From contig OX387200.1 of the NCBI GenBank assembly GCA_947561715.1, positions 22,570,501-22,634,500 of the forward strand: a stretch of 64,000 nucleotides of DNA. Reading direction: 5' to 3'. A program made the position numbers and the translations under genes. The notes below the pieces were generated by a model. It worked only from the letters and a program-made list of their open reading frames with translations. It did no database searches and was not told where the DNA came from. This stretch comes from Ascidia mentula (Eukaryota > Chordata > Ascidiacea > Phlebobranchia > Ascidiidae). Shown one piece after another: positions 1,685 to 57,040 of this stretch (positions are counted from its first letter, which is position 1; each line of letters starts with the position of its first letter).

Positions 1685-4600
1685 TCATAATCTTGTATCG
1701 GTTATTAGTTGATTTCCTGTCACATTTTCACTCTGGTTGGTGGTTTTATCTTTACTTATCCAGGCATCAACAGATGAAGTTTCCTTTTTAGTTGTGAGAC
1801 TCCGGAAAGGTTTTGTCCACATTATGAATATTTCCCTTCGTAAAACTGCAGACGTGTAAAATATCAGGATTCCCTTAAAAAGATTTAAGGTTAGTAGTTG
1901 ACAATTTCACACAAAGTTTATTCAACATACAAGGAAAGCGTTGAAGATTGTAAACAACCAACTAAAAGTTAGCAAATAAACTTGGTCATCTGATAAAAGC
2001 ATGAAGAAACCAAGAATCCAAGTAACCCCAAAAGTAACTGACATTGTGAAAACCATTTTAACTTGTTGGAGAAAATCTTTCCCTTGAGATGTTGACTGAA
2101 CCTAAAGATGATAATGGATGTAATGCTGTAACTATGGTAACATCTTGCTTGGTTTTCTTATAAATATCTTATTTTCTGCAACAAATACTTCCATAATATT
2201 ACAAAATTATTTAACGTCTGCAAGCATTTATTGACAAAACCAATATTTTACAACTCACGCTGTTCTCCATCTTCCTGACATGTCTAACAACGAGAACAAT
2301 AACCACAATGTTATTGAGCAATATGAAACCAACGATGAGGATGAAGCCAAAGTACAGCGAATAATTATGGATCCAACACATGTTGTCACGACGATAACTT
2401 GATGATTGGGGGTCAAGTTGTGGGGGATCATAATCTGCAACAAACATTCACCAGATATTGTTTTCATGTTCATCTTTGTGATTTCATTTTCATTTTTATT
2501 TTATGTTTTCATTTTTATTTTGTGTTGTTTAAGTAATTACCATAATTGAGGTTCACTTTGTCGACGTATCCGATAGTAATGCCAACATTCAACACAACAA
2601 TCACCAATGGTAGAATATATCCCACAATGCAACTCTTTAACACATAGTATGCGGACCCAACAGAGAAAACCTGAACGACAAAAAGAAATTTGATCGCATT
2701 ATGAATGTATGAGTAAAACCATCATTTACATTCCAATACATGGATCAAAATATCAAGACACCAAACACATTAAACATATTTCACCTTGACAATGGATGAG
2801 TAGAGTTTGTTGCTGTAAATACCAATCCACATCCAAGCAGAGAGGAAGAAATACTGGATGATCACTGCGACAACAGTGCACCACGATCCTGTGTCAACCA
2901 ATGAGATGCCAACAAGAAACATGATGTAAGCGATTACAAGGTTAATGTTAATGTGGAGTTGGATCTGGACGTGTTCCTTCTTACGAAGATCTCTGTTAAT
3001 ATTTTCAATATTGGCCTCTTGTGTTCGTGGAAAACAAAAGTTTAATAAATACTTGAACAAAGTAACATATTTGCCCCAATTTAAATATAATAAATTTTCT
3101 TTTTCAGCACCAGCTTCACAAACACATCAAAACAACTTCATCAAAATAAAACAAATAATATATTTTCAAACTATTACAACAAACATCCAACCTGTGTAGC
3201 AGATAGAGTAGAATGGTCAGAGCAATCGCACAGATAGAAATAATACAACCAACTTTACTCATGACCAACAAAACTACATCAGCCTGGACTTCAACCCTGG
3301 ACTGCAAAGAACATGTTTTGTTAAAAAAAAAGGAAAATATTTTAATAATAAAACTTACCACGAGGAGGGCAAAGCTAGTGAGGTGGTTACATTTACACAA
3401 TGGGGGATTAACTCGTGTTTCAAGTTTGCAACCTACATTTGACCACACAAGGTGCTGTGGATCCCAAAATACACACTGCTGTTTCACAATGTCCACCTGG
3501 TGGCACAAGAGAGTATAAAATGGGGGAATGATTAAAAGCAGACGAGCAAGTCACCAATAAATCATTTCTGTTATTCTTCTCTTTTTCTCCATGCTTGGTC
3601 CTTTCATTTCTGTGCTTTATTTTAACAAATTCCTTCAATTCTTTTGTCTTTGCACCTTTTCCGAGGATTGCGGATACAACCTGACAAAAAGTTTTATTCA
3701 AAGTAAGGAATGAGATGATTTCTGTATAAGCTGCAGACAGATGGCCACTGTTTCGACCTAAAAGGTCTTATCAGTGCAGCTGGTGTGACTTTCAGACGAC
3801 TTTGCTGACCAAACGACCAAGCAAAGACTTCCACTTTGTGGTGACTATACAATCACCGTCATCCGTTGGGCACAAAACTAGGTGCAACCTTACAGAGAAA
3901 ACAGAACATTGTGTCCTTTTAGGTCGAAACAGTGGCCATCTATCTGCAGCTTATACACAATTCATATTATTATCTCCACTTTGCTTATCATGAGATGATT
4001 TCTGTTGAAAAAGATGGAAAATAATTTCCACCACAGAAATATGGAACTAACCCATTTTGCTTTTTGTGAGTTTGAGAAAAGAGTGTCATTTTCATAAACG
4101 ACAAACACAGTCCGTAGTTTTGTGTTTCCGCTTGTTGAAGGCTCAAGAGGAACACTGATGTTGATTGGTTGAATTAACTCTCCCGTTGATGATGTAACAA
4201 TGGGTGGGGAGAAGTTTATGACATCACTTTTGTTTAGTGTAACGTCAGAAACCTGAAATAAAATTGATGTTGAAACATTACTTGATTTTATGGAGGTTCT
4301 TCTACTGCTTGCTTGCAGTAATATCATTTTTTCTACTGACTTTACAAAAGATATGTTGATTGATTAAAATTGTGTTTGTTTATGTTCTTGATTTGTTATT
4401 TTGTTGTGCCACACATGAGAGAAAAAAACATATTTGACATACACAGCAAAGCTGTCATTTAAATCAAATCAACTCAACTTGTTACAAGAAAGTACCTTCA
4501 AGGTTATTTGTTTGGTTTTGATCAGAAGACTTGATTGGCCGAGAGCTGTTAAGTTAACTCTCTGAGAAGCTTTGTTAATCGCCACCACAACTTTATATGC

Positions 4601-7600
4601 ATTCAAACTACCACTAGATGGGGATGTTACTCCAATTTTACCAGAATTTTGAACAAATATTGCAACACTGTCAGATATATGGACAATGTCACTCAATGTT
4701 GAAGGCGTTACCTGTTAATGCAAGGTTAAGTTTATGTAAATATTTTAATTTGCTTCAACCAATTGTGTACAAATAATATACAAAAAACTTCCAGTGGTGA
4801 CACAATGTCCAATTATGATGGAGAAAATCAACAAGAAACATTAAACATTAAAAAACCAACCTCAATGTTAGGTTGAGTTAAAGCTTGGGAGACAGAATCC
4901 AGTATTGACAATGTTTCGACAATCTCACTGGAATTTAATGAGTTTGGGGAAGATGTTAAAAGGTGTAGCTCACTTAAAGTTGAACTTAACTGTTCTGTTG
5001 TGTTCAGGGGGGGCTGGAAAATAATTATGACTTCAATTATTTTGAAGACAAACAAATCAACTTTGACACTTACAGATTTATTAAACTGAATATTACATGA
5101 AATATTTGTAAATGTGTTTGAATCAAACATTGGAGCAAAAATATTCCCGATCCCGACGTGGTTTTGTAATGTTGCGTCACAAATCACAGACGCTTTTGAA
5201 AAACCTGAAATTAACTTTAAAGTTTACCAGTATTGCAGCTAAGCTGGATCAACAACCAAATATTTCCAAAAGTGGACACAATTATATGGGCCCACAATGA
5301 TAAGGAGCCAACATTTTTATTTTTGTGTGAAGGATTTAAACCATCCTAGAAAATCTTGATTTTGTTGAATTTTTTTTTTCACTTAAAATAACTTATACCT
5401 TTTCCACAAAGCTCATTGGAAAAAGCTGTTGATCCAACGGATGTTGAGTTGAATGAAAACCCATTTAAATTAGCTTTGTTACAAGGTCCTGTTGATTCAA
5501 TATGTTTGTACCAATAACTCTATCTATATTTGTCAAGCAAACATTTTGATTGTCAAATACCTGATAATGGCAGATCAGTTAAGTATGATATACTGTGTTG
5601 TAATATGTAGGTTTGGTAACTTTCCATAAGCAAGTTGTAGCTGACTGTGAATGAGTCATCTGTTATTACTAAGTATCTACAAAATATTTGTTGTGATTAC
5701 AAGACTTGAGTAATTAATGAGTAATTAATGCAATGATTAAACTTTTAAATACATTACAATGAGCAATGCAAGACTTTATAAACACTTTTTAGAAACAACA
5801 ACCGTTATATTATGGTATGATGAAGAGCAAAAAGGCAAAACCTCATCAGTATATTTGTTACCATTAAACTCATCACATAAAACAATGTGAAAAATTTTTT
5901 TTTTGCAAAGCAGTTTATATGTTAGGGAAAGCACCTTTATTTCTTTTTGGTTTTGGGAAAGCAAGAATTTAACATGGATTAACTGAAAAGTTTTAAAACA
6001 GAGTGGATAAACAACAATATCTTCACCAAGCAAACTAACCTCACAATCAACTTTGCTTGGTCAATGCTTGAAACAGTTACATTTTTAACAGATGTCAGTT
6101 GAAAACTAAATGCAGAAAGCAGTTTTGATTCCAAAACATCAGTTGCAACCTTTGCGTTTATCCTCTGAGTAAACGTGTATCGGTGGAAATGATCCACTGG
6201 AAAAACTAATAACAGATCTTGGATGGAAAATACAGGTACTGGCACATTGATTTGGGTAAAACTTTTTCACCAGAAATAATCAATACCAAAATTTATAGCA
6301 AACCTTCACAAGTTGGGGGGGTGAATTTGAGCAACCAATCGTAAATATAATCAATAGTTTTCGATATTTGACTTCTGTTCGCCTCAAAAGAAAATCCTCC
6401 ATATGAAGTTTGTAAAGCATTTAATAAATAATCTGTGAAACCGCTTTTTGTGCATCGAGTTTGGAGCAATCGCCGAGAGCGTCCCAAAAATCCAGCAGCA
6501 ATTCTGCACAAAAATGTAAAAATGCTTTTAATTTACCAGCAAGAATTTACAGTATGTGTGTGAATAATTTCAAGGAAATCTTTTCCTTTCCAATGTTTTT
6601 GAATGAATTATATTTTATTGTTTTTATTTTAATTAAAACCTGCAGACATCCTTGTGAGTTGCTCCATTGACCAAAATATCTTGCAAGAATTCCAAACTCC
6701 ATGAATACAAATCCCCAATGGTTGTGTTGTCACATGGAGGGAAGGGGAGGTTGGGTAATGTGAAGTTTTGTAATGAAGTTGATATTGAAGTTTTTAAAGT
6801 ATTGTTTGAGTCGATTAAACACACAGAGTCAAGTGTTCGTTTGTCCAATTGACTTATGTTGAAAAAGTTCAATGCATTCTAGAATTTCAAAACAATTTCC
6901 TTCTATTTCAATAGATATTTTTCCAGTTTTACAATTTAGGAAAACAGTTTTAATTTAAATTCAATGTCACTTGGGTTAAAAAAGAAGGAAGTCGGTATAC
7001 TGCTATTTTTACTGCCACGTATACTAATTAATCAGAATTGTTCTTGTGTCACTTAAGTTTCTAAAGTGTTTATTTGAAACCCATCCGGCGAGACTTCCTC
7101 AGAGTTATGTCAACAATATTGCATCAAGCGCATAAACACAAAAAACGCAAGAGAAAAGGGAATGGATAACATTGGCACCGTTTGTGTCATCATGTGACCA
7201 GATGTGTAGCGGGGCGTAACACTTACAACAAGTTGTTGTAAACCGCTGGAAACACTTTGGAAACTTAAGTGCCAGAAGAACAATTCTGATTAAGAAGGTC
7301 GGTGTTTCAAGAAAATATAAATATACCATAGACTGCCTTCGTAGATAATATCCAATGCTCTGCAAATAGTCAAAAAACATTGGACATTTACTGTCAAGAC
7401 ATTTGGCAAGAAAATCGTTTCCACATTGGAATGATTGCTTTATTTTTTCCCTACATTAAACAAAGCATTAAGTTATTTTGAAAGTTAACTTGTCACTTTT
7501 GTCACAATATTTAATAAAAGAAAATATATATTTTGTATGGAAGATTTTTTATTGAACAATAATAGCCTAAATGTGCACTGAAAAGTTTTTGAATATATTC

Positions 7601-34000: not shown

Positions 34001-34542
34001 CAGATTGCAGACAAAATTTTGAAAATTTTTTCCAATCATCTAGAGGTGGCACAACAGATAACACTATATAAAAAAGTCCTAACACACAGAAGCAGCATAT
34101 AACACACACACACAATAATCAGAGCATTTATTTTTAAGTATGGCTTTGTAGATTATAATTATGTGTGAAAGAGATTGACATGTCATGATTCAACCTTAAA
34201 AATCTTTTAAATTTAAAAATTGTTTACTGTTGTTTGATTTTATTGCTATAGACTTCCTGAAAGGTAAATATTCCTGTTTTATTTGTTACATCACCATGAT
34301 TTTGTTGTGTTGTAACTATTTTGTATGGGGGGTGTTGCTAAACATTCATCGCACATATTTTATGGTTAGAACAGGAAGTGATGTCAGTTTCCCTTGATGG
34401 GGTTCTACGTCATCTGTGTATACTGCTTCGCCTTTTGTTTGTTGCATTCAGGCATTATGGAGAAAAGTTTTAAAAACCAAAACATAGTGATGTCGTTTAT
34501 GAGGCCAAGATATTGCTTTTTGAAAGTTAATATTTTAAAATT
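31097..34542. other. Intergenic, GALNT-B upstream to WIP upstream
   Basis: About 3.4 kb with no supported coding exon. It contains a microRNA-like hairpin at 32,681-32,754. Part of it must hold the GALNT-B promoter. Nothing else was recognised. Confidence 0.45.
32681..32754 (+). ncRNA. MicroRNA-precursor-like hairpin (candidate)
   Basis: Two 32-nt arms (32,681-32,712 and 32,723-32,754) around a 10-nt loop. The core GCCTGGA/TCCAGGC and TTTGGTCAGTTTT/AAAACTGACCAAA pairing is complete. Overall there are 27 Watson-Crick pairs, two wobbles and three mismatches. Size and small internal mismatches fit a pre-miRNA, but a small MITE hairpin would look similar. Confidence 0.35.
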
Positions 34543-34555
34543 ATTCTAGTGTTGT

Positions 34556-34787
34556 GTATAAGCTGCAGACAGATGGCCACTGTTTCAACCTAAAAGGTCC
34601 CATCAGTATACAATCACCGTCATCTGTATAGTCACCACAAAGTGGAAGTCTTTGCTTGGTCGTTTGGTCAGCAAAGTCATCTGATAGTCACATCAGCTGC
34701 ACTGATGAGACTTTTTAGGTCGAAACAGTGGCCATCTGTCTGCAGCTTATACACAATTCATATTATTGGCTCCACATTGCTTATCAT
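34556..34787. mobile_element. Palindromic ribozyme-bearing mobile element, copy 2
   Basis: Same termini as the copy at 3,726-3,989 (begins GTATAAGCTGCAGACAG, ends CACATTGCTTATCAT). It has a matching inverted-repeat plan and shares internal blocks (CACCACAAAGTGGAAG, AGTCTTTGCTTGGTCGTTTG). A 13-nt near-duplicate flanks it: ATTCTAGTGTTGT at 34,543-34,555 and ATTCTTGTGTTGT at 34,788-34,800. It lies about 130 bp upstream of the WIP start codon. Its right arm carries an intact hammerhead ribozyme. Its left arm has a decayed one on the minus strand (CTGATGG core, stem I lost). Confidence 0.85.
34695..34747 (+). ncRNA. Type I hammerhead ribozyme, intact core
   Basis: In order: stem I AGCTGCA (34,695-34,701); core CTGATGA (34,702-34,708); stem II GACT/GGTC with loop TTTTA; GAAA (34,722-34,725); stem III CAG/CTG with loop TGGCCAT; the triplet GTC ending at 34,740; then TGCAGCT (34,741-34,747) closing stem I. 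All invariant core nucleotides of the hammerhead family are present. Predicted self-cleavage is after C34,740. Short stem III and open stem I are the form known from Penelope-like retroelements. Confidence 0.85.
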
Positions 34788-34919
34788 ATTCTTGTGTTGT
34801 TTGTTATGTTTTCCATGCTGTTGTTTCCAGAAGGTACAAAGTGAACCACACATATGGTTTAATGCTCGGAAACATTTTAAACTTTATCATAAAATATTTG
34901 TTAAACGTAAGGCTTGGAC

Positions 34920-37900
34920 ATGCCACCTCCACCACCACCACCACCGTTGACTGGTGTAGTCTCTGCTCCTCCAGCTTTGTCTAAAAATGAAGCAAAGGAT
35001 AGGAATGCCCTGCTTGGTGATATCTCAAAATTCAGGGGAGCCAAATTGAAGAAAGTGCAAACAAATGATCGCAGTTCTCCTCAGCTCAGCAGTAAGCAGC
35101 GATATTATATAGAACTTTAACTTGGTGGTTACAACCACTTGTTCGTGCATCAGGTCTGGTACCGGCCCATGGAGTGAATGTAACCAGTGTATAGTGAAAG
35201 AACAAATTGTTTTTTGATTTAAGGATGCTTCACGTCTCATGTTTATGCAGCTCAAAAACAGACCGCTTAACTTACCCAGCTATCATTAACTGTGTCATGT
35301 TGTGTTGTATTTTCCAAATCACTGATAACAGTGTTATGAAAAGTTGTAACTTATGTTCTGTTTTCCTATCACACAATAACTGCCGGTCCAAAAAAACTTT
35401 ACATGAACCAGACAGTAGTGCAAAAATAGTTTGCTCAACTCAGATAATGTGCAATTGGTTTTTATTTGTCCGTGCAATTGGTCTTGTTGGAGTTGTTAAA
35501 ATTTTTTTCTTGCCTTTTATTCCAACCAATAATTCGTTGTTTAAATCTTTACACAAAATATAAGTTTACAACCCACCAGAATATAAACATCACTAAAAAT
35601 AATTTGTCGATGAAACGATTTCTTCTATAAAAATAAAAAGTTATTTAGTTTACAGAAAATACAATGTTTGATCTATAGCAAACCACATATTAAAAAAAGG
35701 TTTCAACTTAAATAAAATTGAGGTGAAACATTGTCCACAGAACCAAAAACTGGAGGAGGAGGAGGTGGTGGTGGAGGAGGAGGAGGAATGCCAATGGGAG
35801 GAGGTTTGTTTGCAGGTGGAGTCCCAAGACTTCCTAAATCATCATCAGGTGACTTGTTAGTTAGAAAATTCCTATTTAAAAAATCAACAAACCTGAACTT
35901 TTATGTGATTTTATTATCATGAATTTCCAGGTGGGGGTGCCATGCTACCTCCAGGAAGGGGGACTCCTTCTGGAGCGGGATCTTTAAGAGGAGCTCCACA
36001 AGGTTTTAGGTCGCCACGCCAACAACGGCCTCCCCCACCATCACGAAATGAACCTCCACGCTTTGGAAACCAAAGAAATAGTGGTAACCCCCGGCCCATG
36101 AGTGGAGGTGGCCCACGCTTCCCCCCACCCCCCGCTGCAGCAGCCCCTACCCCTCCAAGTAATAGCAGTAAACCTGGCACAATTGGAAGATCATCTGGAA
36201 GAAGCTTTCCTCCTCCACCAGGCAACACAGCTCCCAGCTCAAGATCTGGTCCACCCCCACCTCTACCATCTTCCCGGGGTCCCCCTCCCCAACTCCCGCC
36301 TTCAAGAAACAGTGGACCTCCTCAGCCACCTCCATCCCGGGGAAGCGGACTTCCAGCTCCTCCTTCCAGAAACTCAGGAGGATTTCCTCCACCACCGGCT
36401 CCATCTAGAAGCACCTCTGGTCCTCCACAACTTCCTCCATCAAGAGGAGGAAATGCTCCCCCGCCACCATCAAGAGGTGGACCTCCACCTCCCCCACCTG
36501 GCAGAAACAACTTGCCCCCTCCACCAGGAGCGGCACTTCAAAATTCTCCCAATAGAATGTCCAACAACAGTGGACCACCACCACCACCTCCATCACGTGG
36601 TGATGGACCTTCACGTCGCACTTCATCAATTCATGCCCCCCCACCACCCCCAACTTCGTCCATCCCATCTCGACAGTCAGTAAGAGGTTCTTCACCTGGT
36701 GGAAGGCCTTCTGTAAATGGACCGTCAGACAGGTAGGTTTTGTTTGCACAATATTTTGATCTTGACAAATAAAAAGTGTTTTATTGTGGTTTAATTCATG
36801 CAATGTAATCATGCTTGTTAGTGTAAAAATTGAGTGAAAAATTATGTACTTCTGTTATTTTGTGCACCGTGTTTTTTTGCAATCTTACATTGGCAACAAT
36901 AAATGGTCATTGTGGCCAAATGCCCCGTCCCCTAATTCGATTGTATGAAGTAGATATGGGCCCCCAACCCCCTCAAGCAACCCCATGCGCGGATCTCGAA
37001 GTTCCGTGCATGACCGAGCGCTGCCTCCACCACCATCACGAAACTCCCATTCCTCAATTGGAAGGTTTGTGATGTCATAATGTGGATGCTGGTTTATTTA
37101 ATGGTTCAACGAAGATGTTAAGCGAGTTGTTGTCCTTCCAGTAACAATTATAACACCTGCATCCCAAGCACAACTTTTTCCATGTTGCAGTATCACTTCA
37201 GTAGCTTAAAATCATGTACAACCAATCACTAGCCACCATTTTCCAAAACAAAATGTTTAACTTGGGATATTCCACCAATGGCAGCCACAATATATTCTTG
37301 GTCTCTTTCACTTTATTTTAAAAAAGTTTTTATTCCATTTTTAAGCAAAACCAAGCTATGCATGTGCATGTTGTTTGACCAATAGTATTTATGTATTGCA
37401 TGAGAAATTTATGTGTTTAATGTTCTGTTCGTATGCAAGTAAATGGTGCTCATTCATGGGTGTTTTGTTGGTATTATTTTTATTTCTTTTACATTCTTAG
37501 GCCTAGCACCATTTTTTTTGTTAAATGCAACAAAAACGTCAGTTAACAAAACCTGTTGTGCAACAAAGTAGTGTCATAATCATTCAACTGCTTAAACCCC
37601 AATGCTTCTTGACCTTTAGTTGTAAACATGTCTGTAAATCAGGGTGGTTTTTAGCCACTTCTAAGCAAGTAAAGTTTTCAGTTCCCCTGTACCTTCCCCC
37701 ATATGCGGTCGAATCGCAACTGGAACCAAGTTAGAACTATATAATGCTAGGATTCATTTTTTGATTGGTCCGAGCTGTATATTGTTTGTAATTACTGACG
37801 GTTGCCATAGAAACACACCTCCTCCTCCACCTCCTAATCGCAATGACGCAAAAGGTCCACCGCCTCCTCCTAACAGAATGAATGGGATGCAGAACAGCAG

Positions 37901-55351: not shown

Positions 55352-55572
55352 TCGGTGAAGTTACTTTACCCAACTTCACTCGGTGAAGTTACTTCACTTG
55401 AGCCGTGTTTTCGGTGCAGTGACTTCACTCGGTGCAGTGACTTTAGTCGGTGAGGTGACTTCACTCGGTGCAGTGACCTCGTCGGTGCAGTGACTTTAGT
55501 CGGTGCAGTGACCTCGTCGGTGCAGTGACTTCACTCGGTGCAGTGACTTTAGTCGGTGCAGTGACTTCACCG
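55352..55572 (+). repeat. Minisatellite, unit about 17-20 bp
   Basis: Roughly ten imperfect copies of TCGGTGCAGTGACTTCAC and variants (CCTCG or TTTAG in place of TTCAC). A shorter inverted set occurs at 56,920-57,025. Confidence 0.85.
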
Positions 55573-56200
55573 AAAACTGCTTGTCCCTATAATACATGCA
55601 CGTCACCAGCTGACGTCACTTCACTGTACTCTGATTTGATTGCGTACTACTTGACCCCATATTGCCTATTTAATACAATTTCTCAAGAAGCTAGCACAAC
55701 CATATCAAATGCAAATCAAGTTTATTTAATTTTTATGCAAGGGATGCAACAGAAAGTTCTTTTTTTAGCGTTTGGAGCACAATTCACGTGTGTCCATCTC
55801 TCGCAAACATCACATGAAATCTATGAACACAAAAATAGCATGTGTTTTGAATTATGAAAACAGACAGTGCAAACATGTCAAAAACACATGTTTGAGTGGC
55901 ATTTATAATTTTCAAATGATTTTTTTACCCAGGATATTCTTTTCCTACGATTGCCAGGTGGAACTGTGCTGTTACAGGCAACACAGAAGTTTGAAATTTC
56001 TTTAACATCTAAAACAGAATAAGAGATGCTGAAGAGAAAACTTTATGAGACATGTTTGTCCACTAATCTACAACACAATAAGCACATTTTCCTCAAATAG
56101 AAAGTGATTTGTCAAATTTAATATTGTCATATGTTTTATACACAGCCATAAACAAATTGCTTGGTTACCTTGGTTGCCGAACAAACTGCTTGGTTACAAA

Positions 56201-56341
56201 CTGCTTGGTTACCGATAGTGCAAAAGGCAAAAAACACCAATGTAATATATGTGCAGTGACTTCAGGGTGTGTACACGCACTGTTTTTGCACATATATTAC
56301 ATTGGTGTTTTTTGCCTTTTGCACTATCGGTAACCAAGCAG
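56201..56341. repeat. Perfect 55-bp inverted repeat (hairpin)
   Basis: Arms 56,201-56,255 and 56,287-56,341 are exact reverse complements (begins CTGCTTGGTTACCGATAGTG) around a 31-nt spacer. Part of the spacer (about 56,263-56,284) is the exact reverse complement of 22 nt in the ribozyme at 56,525-56,546. Confidence 0.95.
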
Positions 56342-56496
56342 TTCCGTTTGGCCATAGTGCGCTCCACAGTGGTTCGTCGTCTCTGTTGTTCGGTACCTAG
56401 TATAGGGTGCCCTGCAGATCGACGTTGACCGAAAGGTACCACAAAGTGGAGACTAGTGTGCCTGCTAGTGTGAAAGCTAGCACAGTGCCACTCAAC

Positions 56497-56556
56497 AGCT
56501 GCACTGATGAGACCTTACAGGTCGAAACAGTGCGTGTACACACCCTGTCTGCAGCT
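56497..56556 (+). ncRNA. Type I hammerhead ribozyme, intact core
   Basis: Stem I AGCTGCA (56,497-56,503); core CTGATGA (56,504-56,510); stem II GACC/GGTC with loop TTACA; GAAA (56,524-56,527); stem III CAG/CTG closing a 14-nt loop that contains the self-complementary GTGTACAC; GTC ending at 56,549; then TGCAGCT closing stem I. All invariant core bases are present, with cleavage predicted after C56,549. The flanking ACCACAAAGTGGAGACTAG block resembles the copy at 34,556. Confidence 0.85.
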
Positions 56557-57040
56557 ATCCGATACTGATTGCATGATTCAAATGTGGTCTTTGGATAGCA
56601 GTTGTTTCGTTCTATGAAGTTCCATGCTTAAAACCAGTGGTCCACAAATGTAACCGTCCTCTTGGTTTTCATGTTTAGAGTATGACATGGGCCAACAAGC
56701 CATATCACTCTTACACCCACAGAAGAAACAAAATGATCTGCAATATGCTACTATAACACTATTGATGTTTGTGAATTTCAGGTCAGTTAAAATTTCATGC
56801 TATTCATTGGTAATAATTACAACATTAAATAGTTAAATCAAATGTCCTTACTTCTAATTTTTCACAGTGTGCTCGCAGGCGGGTGCAAGTGCTCGCAGGC
56901 GGCTACACCAGGAACTTTGGGTTCACCGAGTGAGGTTACAAGGTGAAGTCCCTACACCGAGTACGGTGATCGGTGCAGTTACTTCACTCGGTGAAGTTGA
57001 GTGAAGTGACTGCACCGAAGCGCACATTTTTACGCACAAC

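Follow-up and report, generated by a model that had tools for sequence, protein, structure and literature searches.

A hammerhead ribozyme motif upstream of a WIP-like gene in Ascidia mentula lies within a dispersed retrozyme whose insertion ends resemble those of resident Penelope-like elements

The genome of the ascidian Ascidia mentula contains many inverted copies of small hammerhead-bearing repeats whose two outer ends differ in a regular manner, one end being short and the other long with respect to the ribozyme cleavage site, and the same asymmetry is present at the ends of Penelope-like elements (PLEs) resident in that genome. This insertion scar, common to retrozymes and PLEs, is the new part of the analysis described here. 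A type I hammerhead motif located just upstream of a WIP/verprolin-like gene lies in one such copy and, with a probability of about 0.8, belongs to a non-autonomous retrozyme of 284-291 bp that was inserted by PLE-type paired priming at staggered breaks. All positions below refer, unless a contig is named, to the window, the whole stretch of 64,000 nucleotides that was analysed (C67:22570501-22634500), and the genome searched comprises 195.8 Mb in 79 contigs.

The hammerhead motif itself is confirmed as real. The original prediction of a 53-nt type I hammerhead on the + strand at 34695..34747 is borne out by both sequence and folding, as the core elements CTGATGA, GAAA and GTC, corresponding to the invariant CUGANGA...GAAA...UH, are present within 34702-34740, and three helices of 7, 4 and 4 bp leave the structure open at stem I, the arrangement that defines type I. 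Stem I (AGCTGCA/TGCAGCT, 7 bp), in which an internal loop, as would serve the canonical contact between loops 1 and 2, is not clearly visible by eye, leads into the CTGATGA core; stem II (GACT/GGTC, 4 bp including one T-G) is followed by GAAA, and stem III (ACAG/CTGT, 4 bp) by C34740, the nucleotide after which cleavage would putatively occur. With a strict definition of type I, the window yields two sites, at 34702 and 56504 on the + strand, as compared to three sites in 300 first-order Markov sequences of window length, and the strict core pattern CTGATGAGACNTTNNAGGTCGAAACAGTG has 1378 exact matches genome-wide (695 + 683) versus none for the reversed core pattern. The original prediction had offered a covariance score below the family threshold as grounds for its own refutation, and on this point the outcome is formally adverse: no Rfam family matches the window at its gathering score, and the best permissive matches to 34500-34820 are RAGATH-1-hammerhead at 23.2 bits, against a threshold of 56.3, and Hammerhead_3 at 16.2 bits, against 48.5. 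A search of the genome with RF00163 gave no match, and control genomes likewise gave none. Little weight is nonetheless given to the sub-threshold score, because neither a core position nor a helix is missing and because the pattern recurs so often in the one direction and never in the other. For the isolated segment, folding places the hammerhead 1.4 kcal/mol above the minimum free energy (MFE) structure; self-cleavage of 34695-34747 is thus, given this difference and the Rfam scores, a prediction.

Two families of the repeat, A and B, are distinguished by loop III, with 989 genome-wide matches (511 + 478) to a family A 28-mer and 324 (164 + 160) to a family B 35-mer. Both families are also found as head-to-tail arrays, such as that at locus L029, where family A cleavage sites are spaced 284, 285 and 285 bp apart; the family B unit is 291 bp, and the GC contents of the units are 47.4 and 48.5%. 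A blastn comparison of A with B aligns the hammerhead over 40 nt at 92.5%, together with a 13-nt box that lies at equal distance from it in the two families, other matches being no longer than 14 nt. The box, at 179-191 of unit A and 180-192 of unit B, holds a small CCAC/GTGG inverted repeat and is perhaps a protein-binding site. At C71:16477555-16740390, a single retrozyme insertion, recognizable by its 144/236 junction and also present in mirrored form, is repeated at several places, from which it follows that segmental duplication multiplies retrozyme copies there.

The element is a metazoan non-LTR retrozyme, and hence of a known kind, because the length of its unit, its hammerhead of type I, its head-to-tail copies, its GC content of 47-48% and its target-site duplications (TSDs) fit the description in PMC7229834 (Cervera and de la Pena 2020). 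Like the elements described there, it is a dispersed, high-copy repeat with a tandem unit in the range of about 150-450 bp that carries a type I hammerhead and occurs as dimers to multimers, with GC below 50%, TSDs longer than 4 bp and coexisting PLEs. As to the further traits of such retrozymes, the lack of LTRs, primer-binding site, polypurine tract and coding capacity, it is the unit size of 284-291 bp that bears on the comparison. The retrozyme is not itself a PLE, since a unit of about 285 nt, far below the 617-aa stretch of the resident element PLE-1, is too short to encode a reverse transcriptase (RT) together with a GIY-YIG endonuclease.

The copy next to the WIP-like gene occupies 34555-34786 (about 232 bp) and is inverted, with a 13-bp TSD whose left copy, TATTCTAGTGTTG at 34542..34554, matches the right copy, TATTCTTGTGTTG at 34787..34799, at 12 of 13 positions. 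Its arms are delimited by blastn to the 285-bp unit and by the TSD boundaries. In the left, antisense arm (34555..34607, - strand), 34552-34607 matches unit positions 246-301 at 96%, and the outer end is a short (S) end about 13 nt beyond the cleavage site in element sense; in the right, sense arm (34627..34786, + strand), 34613-34789 matches the unit at 94%, and the outer end is a long (L) end about 47 nt beyond that site. Between them lies an approximate junction (34608..34626) that includes, by eye, a short inverted scrap of the unit. The hammerhead is situated in the right arm of a 56-nt inverted repeat of 95% identity (34552-34607 with 34701-34756), the left arm of which carries an antisense hammerhead (34561..34607, - strand) with the core CTGATGG instead of CTGATGA. 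The strict type I finder gives no minus-strand match for this antisense copy, which from its changed core is probably inactive. Two further inverted copies are present in the window. A second family A copy at 3709..4000 consists of 3709-3903 on the - strand (93%) followed by 3915-4000 on the + strand (91%), and no TSD as long as 5 bp was detected for it, whereas a family B copy at 56199..56564 carries its hammerhead at about 56497-56556 (+), with no TSD found at this copy. An 18-bp tandem repeat, TCGGTGCAGTGACTTCAG, of about nine copies is located at 55411-55570, 0.6 kb from the family B copy.

Insertion ends were mapped in 105 clusters, comprising the window copy at 3709 together with loci L009-L057 and L078-L117. 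These loci were picked in three ways: L009-L047 for their resemblance to 34552-34756, L048-L057 for their resemblance to 56440-56640, and L078-L117 in order of place on C1. The window copies W34 and W56 were left out of the cluster counts as the same places as L009 and L048, and L001-L008, the same places as L009-L016, were mapped once. Inversion, with the left arm antisense and the right arm sense, is found in 58 of the 105 clusters, a sample partly picked by similarity to two window copies, and this frequent inversion, together with two fixed end positions, is what sets the ascidian copies apart from the retrozymes of PMC7229834. With S ends defined as lying 5-30 nt and L ends 31-60 nt beyond the cleavage site, the clusters up to L097 include 51 inverted ones, or 48 after removal of duplicates by flank, and 41 of these 48 have one S and one L end; one has two S ends, none has two L ends, and six have an end outside both classes. 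Among L098-L117, 20 loci taken in order of place, five of seven inverted clusters are S/L, and the two called SS are near-identical members of a diverged B subfamily in which the right end extends, by eye, into the L region.

The rule is strictest where an exact TSD of at least 9 bp fixes the limits of the insertion. There are 38 such distinct insertions, 31 of them inverted, and all 31 have one S and one L end, or 30 of 30 once L039, a duplicate of L023, is dropped. By simple arithmetic, ends chosen independently and evenly would give this result with odds of about 1e-9. Copies with two S ends were not selected against, since the first search query stopped at the S position on either side. 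In family A (28 insertions), the S ends lie at 10-20 and the L ends at 33-49 nt, with medians of 15 and 45, and the difference between the two ends of a copy has a median of 30 nt (range 18-37). Each of the 30 TSD-bearing inverted insertions thus displays what is characteristic of PLEs, a tail of about 30-40 nt on one of two inverted ends in combination with a TSD. By eye, no A-rich tail was noticed at retrozyme ends. A hairpin between the two start sites was considered as a shared RT signal, with folding z-scores of -3.0 for family A, -1.5 for B, -0.1 for B2 and -0.2 to -1.3 for PLE-1; such a stem-loop finds support in family A only, and is not claimed.

Exact TSDs of at least 9 bp flank 33 of the 58 inverted clusters, versus 11 of 2000 mismatched flank pairs, and the duplicated sequences are 11-14 bp long in 33 of 38 insertions, with a mode of 12 and an AT content of 76%. 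When a 12-bp TSD with at most one mismatch is imposed, it is found at 32 distinct insertions and is missing from 19 of 52 inverted clusters, six of the 58 (L039, L044-L046, L082 and L102) having been set aside as duplicates. Reading outward from the 64 TSD edges so defined, T occupies +2 at 51 edges and +3 at 43, and G occupies +1 at 25; at the three edge-adjacent positions on the TSD side, the commonest base occurs in no more than 28 of 64. A separate set of 29 sites, without L039 and the 24-bp match of L016, has the AAC|TSD|GTT symmetry as well. Such edges would fit a nick in each strand immediately 5' of a GTT-like triplet, the two nicks being 12 nt apart and leaving 3' overhangs.

PLEs are abundant in the same genome, where at least 121 GIY-YIG matches and several PLE families with hammerhead-like cores in their terminal region are found. 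A frame of PLE-1 carries both RVT_1 and GIY-YIG (the 617-aa stretch of RT plus GIY-YIG). Apart from three full-length matches, all 41 PLE-1 ends, counted by eye, fall into two ranges about 38 nt apart, at query positions 172-185 (22 ends, one an internal piece) and 211-220 (19 ends), and pairs of opposite ends with distinct flanks consist of one end of each type in nine of nine cases. A tenth pair, C67:6425556/6429574, with two S ends, was set aside because its mirror-image flanks indicate one end seen twice. The TSDs of the nine pairs are exact over 10-13 nt in eight and over 7 nt in one, and all nine are compatible with a 12-nt duplication if one mismatch is allowed. The view that the short/long rule holds in PLE-1 alone was rejected, as queries made from untailed ends had hidden the tails later found in PLE-2, PLE-3 and PLE-4. 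In these three families, one tailed and one untailed end are present in 15 of 15 pairs, 11 clear and 4 weak. For the first ten pairs, the tailed flank scores 53-72 in nine and 23 in one, and the untailed flank 10-14 within its family and up to 17 across families; the five further pairs score 72 versus 11, 51 versus 19, 26 versus 11, 23 versus 12 and 22 versus 13. Taken over PLE-1 to PLE-4, the combination of one untailed and one tailed end is found in 24 of 24 pairs, 20 of them clear and 4 weak (tail scores 22-26).

At PLE-1 edges, G occupies +1 in 16 of 18, as compared to T at +2 in 51 of 64 and G at +1 in 25 of 64 retrozyme edges, and this difference in edge motif speaks against PLE-1 as the partner of the retrozymes. 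Three of four PLE-2 pairs could be fitted, with an AAC left edge in all three and a GTTT right edge in one, and with tails of 30-31 nt in two and 20 nt in the third; PLE-2 target sites may therefore be nearer to the retrozyme motif than those of PLE-1, which is only a lead. The TSD fit failed in seven of eight PLE-4 pairs and in one of four PLE-2 pairs, and the fits that were obtained are weak, as one mismatch and a free tail length were allowed. In the window, a PLE-2-type fragment at about 6995-7122 on the minus strand contains a partial minimal hammerhead, CTGAGGAAGTCTCGCCGG, followed by PLE-2 tail sequence, and two PLE-4 fragments in opposite orientation are found at C67:22569780-22570331, about 170-720 bp upstream of the window.

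Could the retrozyme instead have been moved by the APE-type machinery of LINEs, with inverted copies arising through ordinary twin priming or self-priming of the cDNA? Such an origin is unlikely, even though TSDs of mostly 11-14 bp with an AT content of 76% are LINE-compatible too, and 7 of the 38 TSD-bearing copies are in a single orientation. LINE machinery does not readily account for the want of a noticeable A-rich tail, for outer ends that lie near fixed internal sites with one of each kind in every one of the 30 insertions, or for resident PLEs with the same end asymmetry, and self-priming would not place a fixed site and a target junction at both ends of a copy. Fixed starts at both target junctions suit paired priming from the target better than self-priming, although some inverted copies may have arisen by the latter.

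The inverted structure also bears on the local role that was proposed for the ribozyme, namely the cutting of a 5' leader or outron of WIP transcripts. The gene assignment and geometry of the original prediction hold: the first coding exon of the WIP/verprolin-like gene (34920..35093, + strand; borders by eye) contains a WH2 motif (Pfam PF02205, E 5.7e-10) consistent with WIP identity, its ATG is at 34920, and the hammerhead lies on the same strand about 170-225 nt upstream. What the first reading overlooked was the inverted-repeat arm and the membership of the motif in a dispersed, high-copy element. The left arm is transcribed before the ribozyme arm and, in the predicted fold, pairs with 45 of the 53 ribozyme nucleotides. 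A transcript of the whole element has a predicted MFE of -117.5 kcal/mol, as compared to -59.2 kcal/mol with the hammerhead pairs enforced, and the resulting cost of 58.3 kcal/mol is unchanged when the transcript is extended to the ATG. Given this pairing and this cost, cutting of WIP RNA is unlikely, and the inverted arm probably locks the ribozyme at this copy in a hairpin and renders it silent, although this lock is a thermodynamic one and there may be a kinetic window for cutting.

A regulatory ribozyme specific to WIP is, accordingly, less probable still than LINE mobilization. In its favor are an intact, same-strand motif 173 nt 5' of the ATG and the retention of every core position in the sense copy while the core of the antisense arm has changed. 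The intact core, however, may simply reflect an insertion of no great age, the ribozyme sits inside an insertion with its own TSD, and the same core pattern is matched exactly at more than a thousand other places in the genome; it is this copy number, together with the predicted sequestering by the upstream arm, that disfavors regulation of WIP. A hammerhead core is present in both arms of 46 of the 58 inverted clusters, and self-locking of the ribozyme may thus be common. The WIP copy carries a lesson in this respect: before a regulatory role is read into an intact ribozyme motif that lies beside a start codon, one needs to know what repeat family it belongs to and what it can pair with.

The internal junctions of inverted copies are as variable as their outer ends are regular. 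The 59 antisense-sense junctions comprise 54 distinct pairs of unit positions, either arm may be the longer, and in 39 of the 59 the arms overlap by 1-11 nt, which fits joining at microhomology. In 50 of the 58 inverted clusters, each of the two arms extends across the cleavage site, and 15 arms, including one duplicate and one B/A composite, are longer than 300 nt. From arms that cross the cleavage site and exceed one unit, it follows that the template was continuous at that site and that reverse transcription could pass along more than one unit length, as is possible on a circle or on an uncut multimer. Neighbors on opposite strands less than 800 bp apart are, among the matches listed and as counted by eye, in minus-then-plus order in nine of nine cases for family A and ten of ten for family B. 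The least probable reading, in which the copies are MITE-like inverted-repeat DNA transposons with an incidental hammerhead and were moved by a transposase, has the inverted arms, short interior and TSDs to recommend it, but is rejected because the junctions vary in this way, and is further opposed by head-to-tail arrays of the same unit, by arms that exceed one unit and by outer ends at two differing unit positions.

Paired priming from one staggered break leads one to expect inverted arms, fixed S and L outer ends, TSDs and variable inner junctions. In the mechanism that we favor, transcripts holding the unit would cleave themselves at the hammerhead and then be circularized. A PLE reverse transcriptase with its GIY-YIG endonuclease would break AAC|N12|GTT-like sites to leave a 3' overhang of about 12 nt, whereupon one target 3' end would prime reverse transcription at S, about 15 nt beyond the cleavage site, and the other would prime at L, about 45 nt beyond it. 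The two cDNAs would each read back through the hammerhead and be joined in the middle of the element, yielding an inverted copy with a TSD. Self-cleavage, circle formation, the agency of PLEs and priming from both target strands are steps that we infer from the structure of the insertions.

A broader statement can be made with less assurance, at somewhat better than even odds: animal retrozymes would be mobilized by PLE enzymes through paired priming, with 12-nt overhangs at AAC|N12|GTT-like sites, two fixed starts, a template continuous across the cleavage site (whether a sealed circle or an uncut multimer) and joining by short overlaps, such that copies are born inverted and self-locked. The one-short-one-long arrangement would, in that case, hold as a general law for insertions of the PLE type, the tail representing the interval between two start sites, one for each target strand. 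Because inverted birth locks a copy's own ribozyme in double-stranded RNA, the paired-priming reading further implies that mainly head-to-tail arrays would feed the next round.

Much of the groundwork for this interpretation has been published. The retrozymes of animals, the hammerheads of PLEs and a helper role of PLEs have all been treated in print. In PMC7229834, the mobilization of animal retrozymes by PLEs is proposed rather than shown, PLEs being regarded as strong candidates because both carry type I hammerheads, are arranged in tandem and coexist. The words Ciona, tunicate, ascidia and inverted do not occur in the main text of that paper. The axolotl retrozymes and the satellite repeats of amphibians described there resemble the present elements in being repeats of about 300 bp that carry a type I hammerhead in high copy number, but the axolotl helix III is 1-2 bp and cleaves better in dimeric constructs, whereas stem III here is 4 bp. 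One ascidian genome paper lists nine type I hammerhead loci (PMC8704543). Among the titles and abstracts listed, none concerned ascidian retrozymes or PLE-type tails or inverted copies in retrozymes, though main texts and supplements could still hold such reports.

A further likeness is to PLEs with minimal hammerheads (PMC3846280, PMC11167929). Like the retrozyme, these elements have end copies in inverted orientation and a tail of 30-40 nt on one end, are flanked by TSDs of about 8-13 bp in AT-rich targets, and carry a hammerhead near the start sites. They differ in encoding RT and endonuclease and in having a reduced helix III, as compared to the 4-bp stem III and unit of about 285 nt of the retrozyme. 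In vitro, a green anole PLE cuts and extends both target strands, and its reverse transcription begins at two adjacent internal sites, the interval between which corresponds to the tail; the anole hammerhead was dispensable for insertion in that assay (PMC11167929). For a rotifer PLE, TSDs were reported together with terminal repeats in inverted orientation, one of which bears a 31-bp tail, and for its inverted copies self-priming on an antisense template was favored, with other templates left possible (PMC3846280).

The shared scar lends support, of a circumstantial kind, to the published idea that PLE enzymes mobilize animal retrozymes. Paired priming would give a simple account of the inverted copies of PLEs and of their optional tail. 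That retrozymes and PLEs bear the same scar in one genome is circumstantial yet independent evidence as to the enzyme responsible for moving animal retrozymes. The matter of the helper enzyme thereby becomes open to test, in further genomes as well as in the PLE assay already published.
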